Shown here: one piece after another, positions 4,423 through 54,574 of the stretch
Position numbering within the stretch: the stretch's first letter is position 1
How the letters are laid out: every line of letters begins with the position of its first letter
NCBI GenBank assembly: GCA_918797485.1
Contig: CAKKNE010000002.1
Span: 1,764,501-1,828,500 of the forward strand
Source: Pelagomonas calceolata
Taxonomy: Eukaryota > Sar > Pelagophyceae > Pelagomonadales > Pelagomonadaceae
Length of the DNA: 64,000 nucleotides
Direction of reading: 5' to 3'
Notes under the pieces: generated by a model
What the model was told of the DNA's origin: nothing
The model's database searches: none
What the model saw: the letters and a program-made list of their open reading frames with translations, nothing else
Translations under genes and position numbers: made by a program

Positions 4423-5913
4423 ATGCGAGGCCTCCTCCTCGCAGTCCTCCTCACGACAACAACCGCCGCAACGGAAACGCTCTTCGACCTCTTCGGCATC
4501 AGCCAGGTCGAACTCCCGGGCCTCGACGACTCGCAACTCAAAAAGCTCTACAAGCGGCGCGCGCTGGAGCTCCACCCCGACAAGAGCGACCACCCCGACG
4601 CCGAGGATCGGTTTAGGAGGTTGCAAGAAGCCTACGAAGGTTTGAAGGACCCCTCGACGCGGTCTTACTTCGCGAGATTTGGCCAGTACGATGTTTGGAG
4701 GAATGTGAAAGAATATGCGGACGAGAAACTCCACCATACGAGGAGAGGCTGGGTCCGCACGAGGAGAGGCGTGCAGATGGCGTCGGAGCGCGTCGACATC
4801 CGGGACGAGTTCGTCCGAGGCGACGGGCGGGTACTACCCCTCCATAAAGATTACTACGACCGAGCCTTTGGTTTTGATGGAGTCACCGTGCTCCTCGTGG
4901 CGGACCACGACGAACCCCACGTGACCCAAAAACCGGCGAACGCGCTCCGGGCCTTCGCGTCGCGGGTGACCAGCAACCAAATCCGGGTCGCTTCCTTAAA
5001 TGCGGCGGCGCTGGGCAACGGCGACTTGGCCATGAACCTCTGGGATGCGTTCGACATGCGGCGCGGCGCGGCGCTCTGCGTCGTCGTGCCGCCTTTCTCG
5101 AAGCCGACCAGCGGCGTCCGCGTGCCCTGCGACCCCTCGGCGTCGTTACCTCTACGTTTATCAAGGGTGGCCAAGTGGCTCAAGGACGACACGCTGGAGG
5201 CCGTCGCTTTTGCTGATGGCGGCTACTGCCTCTCCGACGCGGTGTCGAAGACCTGCAAACGCGTCGAGGGGCCTAGAGCCGCGCTCGTGGTGTCGACGCA
5301 TTCACCTGCATTGTCAAAGGCCGCGCGAAACGCGCGTTTGAAATTTAGACCCTTCGCCGAGGTCGTTATGATTAAATGTGACAAAGACTGCGCGAACACG
5401 CCTCGACTGCGCGTCGATATTGATGATAAATCCGTGGACCTGCCCTTAAACGACAAGCACCAGGCCGACGACGAGCGCCTGGCGGTGACCTTCACGCACC
5501 TGCTCGACGGGTTGCTGCACGGGCTGATCCCGCAAGAGAGGGCGCCGTCGTCCCTGGTCGTGGGAGGCCTCGGCGACCTCGAGGGCAATTGCAAATTACC
5601 GGGCCTCGACGGCCGCTTCGCGTTCGACGGCTATAGATTAGGCAGGCCGTCGTGGCGCAAGCGCAACGTGTACCTGCGGTGGCAGCCCGCGGCCTCCCGG
5701 AGCCGCGGCGTCGGCGCATGGTTGTTAACAGATATGGCCGACGAAGATAGAGCGTGGGGCTTCCTCGAGATCGATACGCTGACGCCGCTCGACGCCGCGG
5801 CGGCGTGCTGGACCTTCTACTGCCGGGGCCGGGCCGTCGAGTGGGAGTGCTCGCCCCACGTCAGTGTCGTGAACGGCGAGACGCCGGCGCCGAACCCGTC
5901 AAACTCTGTGTAA
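4423..5913 (+). CDS. Signal-peptide J-domain protein (DnaJ-like, ER-luminal type)
   Basis: A 496-residue protein. Residues 1-17 form a signal peptide (MRGLLLAVLLTTTTAAT). Residues about 19-90 are a J-domain with the HPDK loop (ALELHPDKSDHPDAEDRF) and a LKDPSTRSYFARFG end, so it should stimulate an Hsp70, most likely BiP in the ER. The middle (130-340) resembles tandem degenerate thioredoxin-like segments without a CXXC motif. The C-terminal 100 residues hold a G-x-Y-x-x-G-R-P-S-W...YLRW pattern that I do not recognise as a named family. Location and co-chaperone role are inferred from the leader and J-domain. The stop is only 4 bases from the convergent kinase-like gene. Confidence 0.8.
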   Translation: MRGLLLAVLLTTTTAATETLFDLFGISQVELPGLDDSQLKKLYKRRALELHPDKSDHPDAEDRFRRLQEAYEGLKDPSTRSYFARFGQYDVWRNVKEYADEKLHHTRRGWVRTRRGVQMASERVDIRDEFVRGDGRVLPLHKDYYDRAFGFDGVTVLLVADHDEPHVTQKPANALRAFASRVTSNQIRVASLNAAALGNGDLAMNLWDAFDMRRGAALCVVVPPFSKPTSGVRVPCDPSASLPLRLSRVAKWLKDDTLEAVAFADGGYCLSDAVSKTCKRVEGPRAALVVSTHSPALSKAARNARLKFRPFAEVVMIKCDKDCANTPRLRVDIDDKSVDLPLNDKHQADDERLAVTFTHLLDGLLHGLIPQERAPSSLVVGGLGDLEGNCKLPGLDGRFAFDGYRLGRPSWRKRNVYLRWQPAASRSRGVGAWLLTDMADEDRAWGFLEIDTLTPLDAAAACWTFYCRGRAVEWECSPHVSVVNGETPAPNPSNSV

Positions 5914-11516: not shown

Positions 11517-14263
11517 ATGATTCATCGTTTGTTACAAGAGGAGCGGCCCTACGACATCCCCGTCGATGCGGCCTATGGCGTGCTGTTCGGCGTGCTCGGA
11601 GCGACGTTCCTCCTCACGGTCGCCGGTTTGTTCATGAAGAAGGGTTCTGGACTAGCAGGTGTCCTGCGGCCGACCGACGACTTCCTGTCGGCGCGGAACC
11701 GCTACAAGTGGCCTACTTTGGCTTTGTCGTTCTTCGCGTCGGGCATGGGCGCGTGGGTCATCTACGGCTCTCCGGAAATGGGCGCGATTCGCACTACCAG
11801 CTGGTGGGGCGTCCTCGGCTACTCTTCCGCCTCGGCGGCGGGCGGCTGGGTGCTCATGTGGCTCGGGCCCGTCGTGAAGCGCAAGGTTGGGGAAGACCAG
11901 GGGTTTTCGGCCGTCGACTTTGCGTTGAAGCGCTATGGTCGACTCATGCAGTTGCTCGTGATGGGCGTCTCGACCTTCTACATGTTCATCTATGTCGTGG
12001 CGGAACTGACGACGATCGCGAACGTGTATGCTACCTTTGTTGGTAAGAGTACGGTCGGGACCGACTCGGAGCATTACACGACCAAGATCAGTAGCATAGT
12101 GGTCATCTTCACCTGGGCTTACACGGCGCTAGCGGGTTTACCGGCGTCGATCCTCACGGACAAGTTCCAGGGCGTGACCATTTCTATTTTCGTCATCATG
12201 CTCCTCATTGCGACGACGACGCTCAAGTCGAACGAGGTACCGGCGCGGCGTCCCTATTCAATATTTATGGGAAGGGGGTGTAGCTCAGTGGCAGAGCGTC
12301 CGCTTTGCATGCGGAAAGCCCAGGGTTCAAACCCCTGCTCCTCCAAATCCCTTTATACACAAAAAACAACTCCGTGGCGCAATGGATAGCGTATCAGACT
12401 TCGAATCTGGGGGTTGCGGGTTCGAGTCCCGTCGGAGTTGTTTTGTATCATCGCTGTGACTGATCGCGCGGCGGCCGTTCAGTATCCGTGGCCGAGTTGG
12501 TCTTTCGTCGTTTGACGAGCCAAAAAGGCGTTGGATTTAAGCCCCAATCTCTTCGGAGGCGTGGGTTCGAACCCCACCGGATGCACATGAACGCCGTCGA
12601 CGCGATACCGGACGGACTGGAAATCTGAAGGCTACGGGTTCGACTCCCGTGTCGGTCTACCGCGGTTTGGACTTGTGATAGTGTGGCCGAGTGGTTAAGG
12701 CGGTAGACTTGAAATCTACTCCCGCAAGGGTCGCAGGATCGATTCTTTGACCAAGATCGATGCGCGTTCGAACCCTGTCACTATCGCACACGTTGATGAT
12801 GTGGCCGAGTGGTCTAAGCTCTTCTGAGCGACCAGAGGCGCTGGTTTTAGGCACCAGTCTTCGGGCGTGGGTTCGAACCCCACCATCATCACTTGAGTTC
12901 CATTCCGCCCATTTGTATCCGTGGCCGAGTTGGTCTAAGGCGTTGGATTTAAGCCCCAATCTCTTCGGAGGCGTGGGTTCGAACCCCACCGGATGCATTT
13001 GGACCGATTGGCGCAACGGCAGCGCGTCAGATTCCAGTCCTGAAGGTTACGTGTTCGAATCACGTATCGGTCACACTTTATCGTGTCGTATCCGTGGCCG
13101 AGTTGGTCTAAGGCGTTGGATTTAAGCCCCAATCTCTTCGGAGGCGTGGGTTCGAACCCCACCGGATGCACACGAACCGCGTGGCGCAATGGATAGCGCA
13201 TCAGACTTCTAATCTGGGGGTTGCGGGTTCGAGTCCCGCCGTGGTTAGCTCGCTAGACCGGTACATCTCCACACAGGTCTCGCAGAAGCAGTTAGACAAC
13301 GCGTCGGGCTGGTTCTCGGAAGGCTTCGAAGCCTTGGTGACGCTCTGGATCGCGATCATCTCCGCCGAGTTGTTTAATCAAGGCGCGTGGCAGCGGGTTT
13401 TTGCCGCCAAGACCGACCGCGACATGCGCATCGGCTTCGGCGTGGGCGGCTTCATGATCTTCCTGCTCATGCTGTTCTTTGGCATCATGGGCATGATCGC
13501 CTATGCGAGAGATCGGGAAAGTTACGATAACTTCATGAAGCTCGGGTACTTGTCGATCTTTGATTTGATCCGCAATTTGCCGCAGTTCTGGCATTATGTT
13601 ACTCTCATATTGTTGACGACCTTAGCGGCGTCGTCCATTGATACGCTCCAGAACGCTTTGGCTTCGGTCCTGTCGCACGACTTGATCAAGCACAAGCTCT
13701 CGCCGAACTGGTCTCGACTCGTCGTGATTGCTTTGAATATCGGCGCGGTCATCATGGCTAATAGACGCTACGAGGTCGTTCCCTTATTCTTAGTTGCTGA
13801 TTTAGTATGTGCGACGTGCGTCTTCCCCCTGTTCCTGGGGATCAGGACCGAAGACTGGGAGATTGGATCCATCAAAATCCCGGCGCCGACGGAGCTAGGA
13901 GCCTTCTTAGGAGCCATCAGCGCCATGGTCGCCGTCATTATTAATGGTGAAGTGAACAATGTCAACAAGGCCATCAACCCCTACACGGGCAAGGTCTACG
14001 ACCGCTCGGCTCTCGCCTACTTCTGGCTCATCCAGAACCCGACCGAGGAGTGCGCGTTGTGTGGTACGAAGACCATGGTGACCTTTATCATCGTGCCCCT
14101 CGTTGGGTTGTTTTTTACGTTCTTCTGGTCTTGTCTAGATGTGCTCGTCAGTGGCAAGTACGCGCGCAAGCCCTTCTGCTTCATTCCCCGGTTGGATGAT
14201 GTGGATGAGGAGGTGCCCCTCGTCAAGGATGATGAAAAGAAGGACGAGCCGCTCGAGGCCTAG
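11517..14263 (+). CDS. Sodium/solute symporter (SSS family, DUR3-like) hosting tRNA array in intron
   Basis: Exon 1 is 11517-12236 and exon 2 is 13277-14263, joined in phase 0 across a 1,040-base GT-AG intron (GAG|GTACCG ... CCACACAG|GTC) to give 568 residues. A second in-phase acceptor lies 9 bases downstream. The protein has a dozen or more hydrophobic spans; AVDFALKRYGRLMQLL, TALAGLPASILTDKFQG and LWIAIISAELFNQGAWQRV are typical of the SSS family and closest in feel to urea/polyamine permeases of the DUR3 type. The tail is acidic and Lys-rich. The split falls in the loop after the DKFQG span, and both halves are needed. Substrate is inferred only. An in-frame ATG at 11484 would add 11 residues. 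Confidence 0.85.
12274..12345 (+). tRNA. tRNA-Ala(TGC)
   Basis: Cloverleaf with D-arm GCTCAGTGGCAGAGC, anticodon stem TCCGC/GCGGA around loop TTTGCAT, and T-arm CAGGG TTCAAAC CCCTG. The acceptor has a T-T mismatch and one wobble pair. No insert. First tRNA of the intronic array, 37 bases after the splice donor. Confidence 0.92.
12368..12440 (+). tRNA. tRNA-Arg(TCG)
   Basis: Acceptor AACTCCG/CGGAGTT, anticodon loop CTTCGAA, T-arm GCGGG TTCGAGT CCCGT. No insert. It is the only array member followed by a TTTT run. Confidence 0.93.
12482..12585 (+). tRNA. tRNA-Leu(TAA) with 21-base D-loop insert
   Basis: Identical to the two Leu(TAA) genes at 12915 and 13088 except for 21 extra bases at 12504-12524, in the D-loop between GGTCT and AAGGC. 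The exon TTGG before the insert pairs with CCAA near its end. TCT and AAA form 3-base bulges around that 4-bp helix, and TTCGTC/GACGAG closes a GTTT loop, giving a bulge-helix-bulge. Removing the insert restores the sequence of the sister genes exactly. Confidence 0.88.
12504..12524 (+). other. putative ectopic tRNA intron (D-loop), Leu(TAA)
   Basis: 21 bases absent from two sister genes in the same array. The exact junctions are set by requiring the sister sequence. The canonical anticodon-loop intron is absent. Confidence 0.65.
12589..12658 (+). pseudogene. degenerate tRNA-like sequence (good 3' half only)
   Basis: The T-arm ACGGG TTCGACT CCCGT and 3' acceptor strand GTCGGTC are clear. The anticodon arm is CGGA/TCTG with loop CTGGAAA (would read GGA). 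The 5' strand GAACGCC pairs at only five of seven positions and no proper D-arm is present. The 3' half resembles the Trp gene at 13002. It is either a decayed tRNA or half of an unusual one. Confidence 0.5.
12677..12786 (+). tRNA. tRNA-Ser(TGA) with 29-base T-arm insert
   Basis: Acceptor GATAGTG/CACTATC, anticodon loop CTTGAAA in stem GTAGA/TCTAC, and a long variable arm TCCC GCAA GGG. The T-stem GCAGG is separated from TTCGAACCCTG by 29 bases (12738-12766, or shifted by one). Inside, two ATCGAT blocks and CTT/AAG pair as a hairpin. Exon CGC can pair with intron GCG, leaving 3-base bulges AGG and CGT. Removal gives a normal 81-base tRNA-Ser. Confidence 0.85.
12738..12766 (+). other. putative ectopic tRNA intron (T-arm), Ser(TGA)
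   Basis: 29-base insert at the junction of T-stem and T-loop. It is hairpin-forming, with a central helix of only 3 bp, weaker than the Leu cases. Confidence 0.55.
12795..12891 (+). tRNA. tRNA-Leu(TAG) with 19-base D-loop insert
   Basis: Acceptor GATGATG/CATCATC, anticodon stem CTGGT/ACCAG with loop TTTAGGC, T-arm GTGGG TTCGAAC CCCAC. About 19 extra bases lie in the D-loop after GGTCTA, at the same place and register as in the Leu(TAA) gene at 12482. Exon TGGT pairs with insert ACCA, bulges CTA and GAG flank it, and GCTC TTCT GAGC forms the inner hairpin. Confidence 0.87.
12817..12835 (+). other. putative ectopic tRNA intron (D-loop), Leu(TAG)
   Basis: Removal yields GGTCTAAGGC, the same mature D-loop end as the Leu(TAA) genes. 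Junctions are ambiguous by up to two bases because insert and exon both begin AG. Confidence 0.62.
12915..12997 (+). tRNA. tRNA-Leu(TAA), uninterrupted copy 1
   Basis: 83 bases; acceptor GTATCCG/CGGATGC, anticodon loop TTTAAGC, variable arm TCTCTTCGGAGG, T-arm GTGGG TTCGAAC CCCAC. It serves as an internal control for the interrupted copy at 12482. Confidence 0.94.
13002..13073 (+). tRNA. tRNA-Trp(CCA)
   Basis: Acceptor GACCGAT/ATCGGTC, anticodon loop TTCCAGT, T-arm ACGTG TTCGAAT CACGT. It starts only 4 bases after the previous tRNA ends. Confidence 0.93.
13088..13170 (+). tRNA. tRNA-Leu(TAA), uninterrupted copy 2
   Basis: Identical to 12915-12997 over 83 bases, implying recent duplication within the array. 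Confidence 0.94.
13175..13247 (+). tRNA. tRNA-Arg(TCT)
   Basis: Acceptor AACCGCG/CGTGGTT, anticodon loop CTTCTAA, T-arm GCGGG TTCGAGT CCCGC. Last member of the array, 29 bases before the splice acceptor. Closely similar to the Arg(TCG) gene at 12368. Confidence 0.93.
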
Positions 14264-52005: not shown

Positions 52006-53447
52006 TTAAGCAGCCCGCTCCGAGGGCCGCACGTCCCGCGCCGGGCCCTCCGGCGGGCGCCCAGTCATAACGTCGACGGAGCGCGCGAAGCGATCGCGGT
52101 CCTCGGCTGCAGTCATGGCATTGGCCGGGTTCTCGCCGGAGCGGACAAACCGAGCGTCGATCTCGTTTGCCTCGAGCGCGTCGAAGATAAAGCCCAAGTG
52201 CACACGGATGTGACGCGACCTCGCGGATAGGTCGCGACGCTTCAGCTGTAGAAGTACGGAGTTGTTGTCGCAATGAACAATGGTCGGCGGTAGCGTGACA
52301 CCGACTAGAAATGTGATGAGATGGCGTAATGCTAAAACCTGGCGAATCACCTGTACAAGCGCATAGAGCTCGGCCTCGAAGGTCGACAGAGCAGTTGCCC
52401 CTTGTACAGCGGAGAAGGCGCTTACGACAGCCATGTTGAGCGTAATGAAGCCACCGCTTCTAGATTTGCAATAACCAGATGCTGTGTGATGTATCTCACG
52501 CCCATGAGATGCGTCGCACCACGCCTCAAGTCTGATTTCACTATTGTTTAACCGCTGGAAGAGCAGCCCGAGATCCGTCGTGCCTACCAGATAACGCAAA
52601 CTCCTCTGAAGAGCTGCGCGGTGACCCGGGCAAGGCGCCTCGGGGCAGCTCGCGGACGGCGCAGACACTGTGGCCAGGACGCCGACCGAGAAGAGAAGAT
52701 CCGGACGTGTACGTGTAGCGATGTACATGAGCATGCCGAGGACCGACCGAAACTTCGCCGAATCAAAGGCCGCCGCGCCCTTGGGTAGGCCGCCACTTGG
52801 AGCCTCTATAACACTTGCAGTAAAGTCTGTAGGGAGCGGTGTCTTGACCGGTTTGGCGTCGCTCATTTCGAGGCGCTCAAGTATCTTTTCTGAATAGCCT
52901 CGCTGCGTGACTCGCACGCGACCGGCTCCTGCATCATGGTCTATTTCCATGCCAAGATAATTGGTGCCTGAATCAGTGATTGGTACAAGCGTCTTGAGTG
53001 TAGTTTTGACTCGATGGCAAAGTTCTTGATTGCCCATCATTAGAATGTCATCAACATATAGGAGAATGATGCAAACCGTAAAATATTTTTAACAAAGGTC
53101 AAAGGACCGATAACAAAGGTCAGTCCCCAGCAAAGTGAGGAATCCGCTTTGCTAAAAACTATTTTGCTTTTTTTAGCATGGTAGTTGTCTGCGCACTGCT
53201 GGGGACCTGTACTGATTTGTATCCACCGATGGAAGCACTGGTACATGCGGCGTAGGCGCTTGCCCACGTCTAGTACCGACCCTATTCGACCCCCGGGAGA
53301 CCCCAGGGCCGCGAATGGACAGGATTTCACAACTTGAGCCGCCCCACTACACGGCGAATCCGACGCGCGCGCCGGCGGTTCAGAAGTAGCTCTCAAAAAG
53401 AAGTCCATGGACATGCCCCCACCCAACGCCGTCGACGCGCCATTCAA
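52006..53447 (-). mobile_element. Ty1/copia retrotransposon fossil (RT and RNase H part)
   Basis: Minus-strand sequence matches the C-terminal part of the copia polyprotein: the reverse-transcriptase YVDD region near 53050-53080, the thumb, and the RNase H domain (AWCDASHG, FEAELYALVQ, HCDNNSV, TRSRHIRVH-like). The 5' part of the element (gag, protease, integrase) is absent from the window and no terminal repeats were found, so it is truncated and broken, with a few breaks at least. A short segment with inverted ends, possibly a nested insertion, lies near 53090-53220. The long surviving frame suggests a fairly young copy. Confidence 0.85.
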
Positions 53448-54069: not shown

Positions 54070-54192
54070 AGGCCCGAGCCCTCGAAACAAAAATCACCGC
54101 AAACCCGAAAGTTAGCCAAGTAGCATTCATATGCAGGCGCCGACCCAATCCTCCCATCGCGTCCTCGGGAGCCCTCACTCCCGGGACAGTGC

Positions 54193-54308
54193 GAGCGCTC
54201 AGATCATAGGGAGAGCACCGATACCCGTCAGCTCATCGAAGTTAAGCCCTATCGAGCCCGGTTAGTACTACGGTGGGTGACCACGTTGGAATCCCGGGTA
54301 GCGCTCTC
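54193..54308 (+). rRNA. 5S ribosomal RNA
   Basis: Starts GAGCGCTC and ends GCGCTCTC, forming helix I. Internal signatures: GTTAAGCCC (A-box region), GAGCCCGGTTAGTACTACGG, GGGTGACCACGTTGGAATCCCGGGT (C-box region, given in pieces: GGGTGACCACG, TTGGAATCCCGGG). It is followed by TCTTTTCTTTTT, a Pol III terminator. Length about 116-118. A single copy, not in an array, about 270 bases upstream of a Pol II gene on the same strand. Confidence 0.95.
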
Positions 54309-54574
54309 TTTTCTTTTTGCCATTTTTCCATTTTTTTTGCCCCCCTGCTCCCTGCGCACGGCCAGCGCCTTCGAGCCTGCATGCCAAAACGGATTCGAAA
54401 AAGCGGACGGACGGCACTCAAACTCGTCAGAGGACGTCTCCCGCGCCGCCCTCCGACCGGCTTCGGCCGGCGACGGGCTGCGAGCCAAACCTTGGGCGGA
54501 GAGGCTTGGCGTCGCACGAGCGCACAGAGCAAATTCAGGTGCCTGGGAGTTGGTGTTCACGCGAGGCCACACCG

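Follow-up and report, generated by a model that had tools for sequence, protein, structure and literature searches.

Putative bulge-helix-bulge introns in the D-loop and T-arm of three tRNA genes within one Pelagomonas calceolata array

The tRNA-splicing endonuclease of yeast is described as using a ruler mechanism and as cutting solely at position 37/38 (PMC4033280, PMC3978253). Among eukaryotes, the exceptions to 37/38 named in the papers examined are Cyanidioschyzon merolae, nucleomorphs and a small number of genes from green algae (PMC3978253, PMC4090602). C. merolae has tRNA introns in the D-, anticodon and T-arms (PMC9602550), excision of the insertions in nucleomorph tRNAs of Guillardia theta has been demonstrated by reverse transcription-PCR (PMC4090602, PMC3978253), and Ostreococcus lucimarinus has one intron at 27/28 in a permuted tRNA gene (PMC3978253, PMC4090602). 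Archaeal tRNA introns include the sites 20/21, 22/23 and 53/54 (PMC4090602). Introns with a bulge-helix-bulge (BHB) have a 4-bp central helix and 3-nt bulges (PMC3978253, PMC4090602), and in an archaeal complex cleavage takes place between bulge bases 2 and 3 (PMC12397907). Here we describe a dense tRNA array in a 64,000-nucleotide stretch of Pelagomonas calceolata DNA (contig CAKKNE010000002.1, positions 1,764,501 to 1,828,500; hereafter the window), in which three tRNA genes carry an insert in the D-loop or the T-arm. An initial annotation of the window had named archaea and Cyanidioschyzon as precedents for such an insert; the sources cited above bear out both and add nucleomorph tRNA genes.

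Three interrupted tRNA genes and the boundaries of their inserts

Of the nine tRNA genes present at full length in the array, three were interrupted outside the anticodon loop, namely copy a of tRNA-Leu(TAA), tRNA-Leu(TAG) and tRNA-Ser(TGA) (Table 1), while none of the nine (six ARAGORN calls and three spliced forms) had an intron in the anticodon loop. The Leu(TAA) gene was the only one of the three recognized in the initial annotation, which had located both the gene and its D-loop insert correctly; the other two interruptions, in Leu(TAG) and Ser(TGA), are additions to it. With its intron search switched off, ARAGORN called none of the three interrupted precursors, and it called all three as cloverleafs once the insert had been excised. 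The Rfam tRNA model, applied at its gathering score, detected Ser(TGA) and Leu(TAG) with their inserts in place, and Leu(TAA) copy a remained below that score.

The insert of Leu(TAA) copy a, TTCGTCGTTTGACGAGCCAAA, is exactly defined, because its removal leaves a sequence identical at 83 of 83 bases to both uninterrupted sister genes and only one placement of the insert restores that sequence. The boundaries in Leu(TAG) and Ser(TGA) were taken from the cloverleaf, which allowed three and two equivalent placements, respectively; in both genes, removal of the insert restored a regular cloverleaf.

We then applied a fixed BHB rule, without adjustment, at these known boundaries. Under this rule, exon 1 pairs over 4 bp with the 3' portion of the intron, each strand has a bulge of 3 nt, and cleavage follows base 2 of each bulge. 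It was satisfied at the exact boundaries in all three genes, with five inner pairs in Leu(TAA), six in Ser(TGA) and four in Leu(TAG). In Leu(TAA) copy a, the central helix TGGT/GCCA is flanked by the bulges CTT and AAA and by a 5-bp inner helix, TCGTC/GACGA, and in this register a cut after bulge base 2 coincides with both insert boundaries. The initial annotation had likewise placed a BHB at this insert, and the motif does exist there, but in a register one base away (TTGG/CCAA, with bulges TCT and AAA and an inner helix TTCGTC/GACGAG), which we rejected because its 5' cut would fall after the third bulge base. The corresponding elements are GGTC/GACC, with bulges TAA and AGA and a 4-bp inner helix, in Leu(TAG), and CGCA/TGCG, with bulges GGA and CGT and a 6-bp inner helix, in Ser(TGA). 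Exactly one of the three equivalent placements in Leu(TAG) and one of the two in Ser(TGA) agreed with the rule. The rule failed at all eight neighboring placements (−4 to +4) in Leu(TAA) and also at the eight neighboring placements in each of the other two genes.

The frequency with which an unrelated insert would satisfy the rule at the same boundaries was estimated from five null sets, counting a match when it had the 4-bp central helix and at least four inner pairs. With the insert drawn from parts of the window that lie outside the array, matches numbered 146 of 62,880 for Leu(TAA), 80 of 62,872 for Ser(TGA) and 86 of 62,882 for Leu(TAG), or about 0.1 to 0.2% each. In the same gene order, there were 194, 53 and 62 matches in 50,000 dinucleotide shuffles, and, in 200,000 trials each, 544, 83 and 187 with mononucleotide shuffles, 380, 110 and 256 with random inserts of 65% GC, and 993, 134 and 1,682 with random inserts containing a 4-bp hairpin. 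Across all five null sets, the chance of a boundary-exact BHB was thus 0.04 to 0.84% per gene. If the genes are independent, the product over the three is about 4e-9 for window stretches and about 3e-8 for hairpin inserts.

A common source of the inserts was considered and found no support. Their pairwise alignment scores were equalled by 44, 52 and 227 of 500 shuffles, and therefore provide no evidence of transposition among the three; within the window, none of their 11-base words recurred.

Table 1. Coordinates of the tRNA genes, putative introns and host-gene intron (positions in the window; tRNA positions of the inserts numbered by hand)
Feature	Coordinates	Strand	Basis
tRNA-Leu(TAA) copy a, D-loop interrupted, 104 bases	12482..12585	+	Spliced form of 83 nt equals both sisters
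Putative ectopic intron, 21 nt, D-loop, about position 20b/21	12504..12524	+	Sister comparison, BHB
tRNA-Ser(TGA), T-arm interrupted	12677..12786	+	ARAGORN only after excision; Rfam 47.9 bits unspliced
Putative ectopic intron, 29 nt, T-arm, about position 53/54	12738..12766	+	Cloverleaf, BHB
tRNA-Leu(TAG), D-loop interrupted	12795..12891	+	ARAGORN only after excision; Rfam 53.3 bits unspliced
Putative ectopic intron, 19 nt, D-loop, about position 21/22	12817..12835	+	Cloverleaf, BHB
tRNA-Ala(TGC), uninterrupted	12274..12345	+	ARAGORN, Rfam
tRNA-Arg(TCG), uninterrupted	12368..12440	+	ARAGORN, Rfam
tRNA-Leu(TAA) copy b, uninterrupted sister	12915..12997	+	ARAGORN, Rfam, sister comparison
tRNA-Trp(CCA), uninterrupted	13002..13073	+	ARAGORN, Rfam
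tRNA-Leu(TAA) copy c, uninterrupted sister	13088..13170	+	ARAGORN, Rfam, sister comparison
tRNA-Arg(TCT), uninterrupted	13175..13247	+	ARAGORN, Rfam
Predicted GT-AG intron of host gene, 1,040 nt, holding the whole tRNA array	12237..13276	+	In-frame exon join

Folding, a splicing route and competing explanations

We consider it likely that all three inserts are genuine and functional ectopic tRNA introns, excised by a SEN/EndA-type endonuclease with subsequent ligation of the exons. The insert boundaries, the intact exons and the BHB pairing at the boundaries are properties of the sequence itself, and a BHB that fits the boundaries exactly in each of three genes from a single array makes identification as ectopic introns of the shape cut by tRNA-splicing endonuclease well supported. 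These matches also lend weight to the proposal in the initial annotation that the D-loop insert has the substrate shape of this enzyme. In each precursor, the 3' portion of the insert would base-pair with an exon stretch, giving the 4-bp central helix, with three unpaired bases bulging from each strand. A SEN/EndA-family tRNA-splicing endonuclease would cleave both bulges behind base 2, and the exon ends would then be sealed by a tRNA ligase to give Leu and Ser tRNAs of regular form, which would serve in translation. Transcription is presumably by RNA polymerase III, since the A-box region is intact and a B-box-like GTTCGAACCC is retained in the Ser gene. By inspection, the D-loop inserts lie 3' of the A-box region (positions 8 to 19), and the B-box-like GTTCGAACCC occupies 12766-12775 of the unspliced Ser gene, starting with the last intron base, so the internal promoter of interrupted Ser(TGA) may survive.

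The two Leu precursors folded alike without constraints. Their minimum-energy structures both comprised the D-stem, a small internal loop, a 5-bp helix, a 3-nt bulge on the 5' side and the inner helix, and the pairs of the 4-bp central helix had probabilities of 0.79 to 0.94 in Leu(TAA) and 0.92 in Leu(TAG). The fifth pair of the 5-bp helix occupies part of the 3' bulge in both folds. Compared with shuffled sequences, the full precursors had z-scores of −2.54 for Leu(TAA), −2.30 for Ser(TGA) and −2.99 for Leu(TAG), with 4, 5 and 1 of 200 shuffles, respectively, as stable.

Several observations weigh against functional introns. BHB-like pairings at arbitrary positions are frequent: the 1,036-base array contains 23, and the initial 12 kb of the window 201 (17 to 22 per kb). 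A BHB-like fold by itself is therefore weak evidence, and the strong part is that it coincides with boundaries established independently. When both bulges were kept open, the Leu folds lay 2.0 kcal/mol (Leu(TAA), −36.4 versus −38.4 kcal/mol unconstrained) and 2.3 kcal/mol (Leu(TAG)) above the minimum. The BHB of Ser(TGA) lay 4.8 kcal/mol above the minimum-energy fold of this precursor, which prefers another pairing, and its central helix had a pair probability of 0.0. Around the inserts, the local stretches were no more than moderately stable relative to shuffles (z of −1.53 for Leu(TAA), −1.23 for Ser(TGA) and −1.61 for Leu(TAG)). The motifs also depart from the strict hBHBh' form: the outer pairs stacked directly on the bulges number one in Leu(TAA), none in Ser(TGA) and one in Leu(TAG), and the helices on the D-stem or T-stem side are separated from the BHB by an internal loop. 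Because no long outer helix is stacked directly on the bulges, all three resemble the relaxed HBh' form more closely than the strict one; relaxed HBh' and hBH forms are found in archaea (PMC4090602). In addition, the Leu(TAG) anticodon loop contains a TTTT (12845-12848), a possible RNA polymerase III stop inside the gene. Finally, the array contains a decayed tRNA relic.

This relic is also an argument for the strongest competing explanation, that the three interrupted genes are young pseudogenes that received random inserts as redundant copies, while the working tRNAs come from intact genes at other sites. The interrupted Leu(TAA) gene does have two intact copies beside it, and a review supposes pseudogenes where redundant genes of eukaryotes carry insertions of this sort (PMC4090602). 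However, the exons of Leu(TAA) copy a are those of its sisters, all three spliced forms are regular cloverleafs, and BHBs that fit the boundaries exactly in three of three genes would be an uncommon accident in each (about 0.1 to 0.2% against window stretches, and within the range given above over the five null sets). We therefore regard pseudogenes as improbable.

Less likely still is an origin of the inserts as fold-back palindromes, in which template switching during replication copied the exon back and left a hairpin that reaches into the exon and mimics a BHB. It is true that each of the three inserts can form a hairpin continuing into exon 1, but a simple copy would be expected to include the bulge bases and not to set the boundary two bases into both bulges, and random hairpin inserts fitted the rule in only 0.07 to 0.84% of trials, a null set outside which exon-derived fold-backs lie. 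That the tRNAs are used with their inserts retained, as tRNAs with expanded D- or T-arms, is hardly credible: the acceptor and anticodon arms are intact and nothing speaks for it directly, whereas the Ser insert parts the T-stem from its loop and the inserts end where a regular tRNA resumes.

The tRNA array and its host gene

The array spans about 1 kb and comprises, from 5' to 3', Ala-TGC, Arg-TCG, Leu-TAA copy a, the relic, Ser-TGA, Leu-TAG, Leu-TAA copy b, Trp-CCA, Leu-TAA copy c and Arg-TCT, that is, nine full-length tRNA genes and one relic separated by spacers of 4 to 41 bases. Besides the run within Leu(TAG), the only run of at least four T residues in the array is intergenic (12441-12444); because there is only one such intergenic run, several of the genes may share one transcript. 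An AT-rich, TATA-like stretch noted by eye lies just 5' of the first tRNA gene, Ala, at 12256-12266.

The relic occupies 12590-12658, starting 4 bases 3' of Leu(TAA) copy a. It aligns with Arg(TCG) along most of its length and with Trp along its last 33 bases, and is therefore treated as decayed or chimeric; by inspection, its acceptor strands AACGCCG and GTCGGTC are unpaired. We also considered it as part of a permuted or split tRNA, but a restrictive 5'-half pattern, run on both strands of the window, matched only the intact Trp gene, and the sequence GACTGAT near 12459, considered by eye as its 5' half, was supported by no test. Arg(TCT) follows Leu(TAA) copy c at the same distance of 4 bases, and the spacer there, CATG, resembles the CACG between copy a and the relic. 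These similar spacers may reflect a duplicated Leu-Arg unit, but Trp likewise follows copy b after 4 bases. Elsewhere in the window, an ARAGORN call of tRNA-Pro(ggg) at 5004-5094 lies within an open reading frame and was not seen by Rfam; we rejected it as a chance call that is probably false.

The array appears to be nested, on the same strand, in a predicted GT-AG intron of a sodium:solute-symporter gene (Table 1), a setting that the initial annotation had passed over. The flanking exons, 11517-12236 and 13277-14263, join in frame into a protein of 568 amino acids that gave one continuous match to TIGR00813 (sodium/solute symporter) at 50.5 bits, under the curated cut-off of 184; the separate exon halves scored 31.3 and 31.8 bits. 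On the first exon, Pfam SSF scored 22.0 bits, slightly below its cut-off of 22.8, and the Pfam scan returned no match on the second. The donor was picked by eye and only the join at acceptor 13276 was scored; four alternative AG acceptors, at 13204 (inside Arg(TCT)), 13285, 13288 and 13291, also leave the frame open. The host protein may be a DUR3-like urea transporter. When the second host exon was searched against viral_contigs, 37 stretches fitted the pattern and none was confirmed.

The window as a whole looks like eukaryotic nuclear DNA, because it contains 5S rRNA, ribosomal protein L5, UFD1, calpain, a eukaryotic glutathione synthase and a retrotransposon reverse transcriptase. The 5S rRNA gene (54191-54309; Rfam, 94.6 bits) shares the window with the gene for ribosomal L5 (2845-3861), a protein that binds 5S rRNA in other organisms, and the RVT_2 reverse transcriptase domain of the retrotransposon lies on the minus strand at 52006-53088. 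The composition of the window suggests a pelagophyte-like stramenopile.

Comparison with known systems

Given the precedents in C. merolae, nucleomorphs, O. lucimarinus and archaea, the kind of intron proposed here is already known; eukaryotic precedents are few, and what would be new are the three cases in this array. No report of ectopic tRNA introns in stramenopiles, haptophytes or dinoflagellates was recognized among the matches listed, which comprised titles and the starts of abstracts, with subscription literature mostly outside. The exact Leu(TAA) pattern gave no match in viral_contigs or genome_contigs, and a Leu pattern with a D-loop gap gave none in viral_contigs. Standard tRNA scans can overlook such genes: ARAGORN, run as described, missed all three, and one of them escaped the Rfam scan at its gathering score.

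If the inserts are introns, a further eukaryote has BHB introns in the D- and T-arms. This would show a wider origin or persistence of relaxed recognition and would provide an additional test of how the endonuclease subunits set specificity. A broader proposition, for which we put the chances at about even, is that this is a eukaryotic lineage outside red algae and nucleomorphs with archaea-like, position-independent tRNA splicing, in which D-loop and T-arm BHB introns occur across nuclear tRNAs and are expressed from a dense, possibly polycistronic array within a spliceosomal intron.

C. merolae (Soma et al. 2007, 2013, via PMC3978253, PMC4090602 and PMC9602550) likewise has BHB introns in the D- and T-arms of nuclear tRNA genes, with cleavage presumed to be of the SEN type. 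Unlike in that system, the putative introns described here occur singly in three genes of one dense array, which is apparently nested in the intron of a protein gene, in a GC-rich genome and with no permuted gene recognized in the array. The G. theta nucleomorph (Kawach et al. 2005, via PMC4090602 and PMC3978253) also has insertions in the D and T arms of algal tRNAs; these measure 3 to 24 nt and many have no defined BHB, whereas the inserts described here measure 19 to 29 nt and have boundary-exact BHBs. The noncanonical introns of archaea (Thermoproteales and others; PMC4090602, PMC8450103) share with the three inserts sites near 20/21 and 53/54, the 4-bp central helix and the 3-nt bulges, but the host here is eukaryotic, since the window has genes of eukaryotic type for ribosomal L5, UFD1 and calpain. 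Compared with the canonical eukaryotic introns at 37/38, the enzyme family is presumed to be the same, and the position of the inserts in the array differs.

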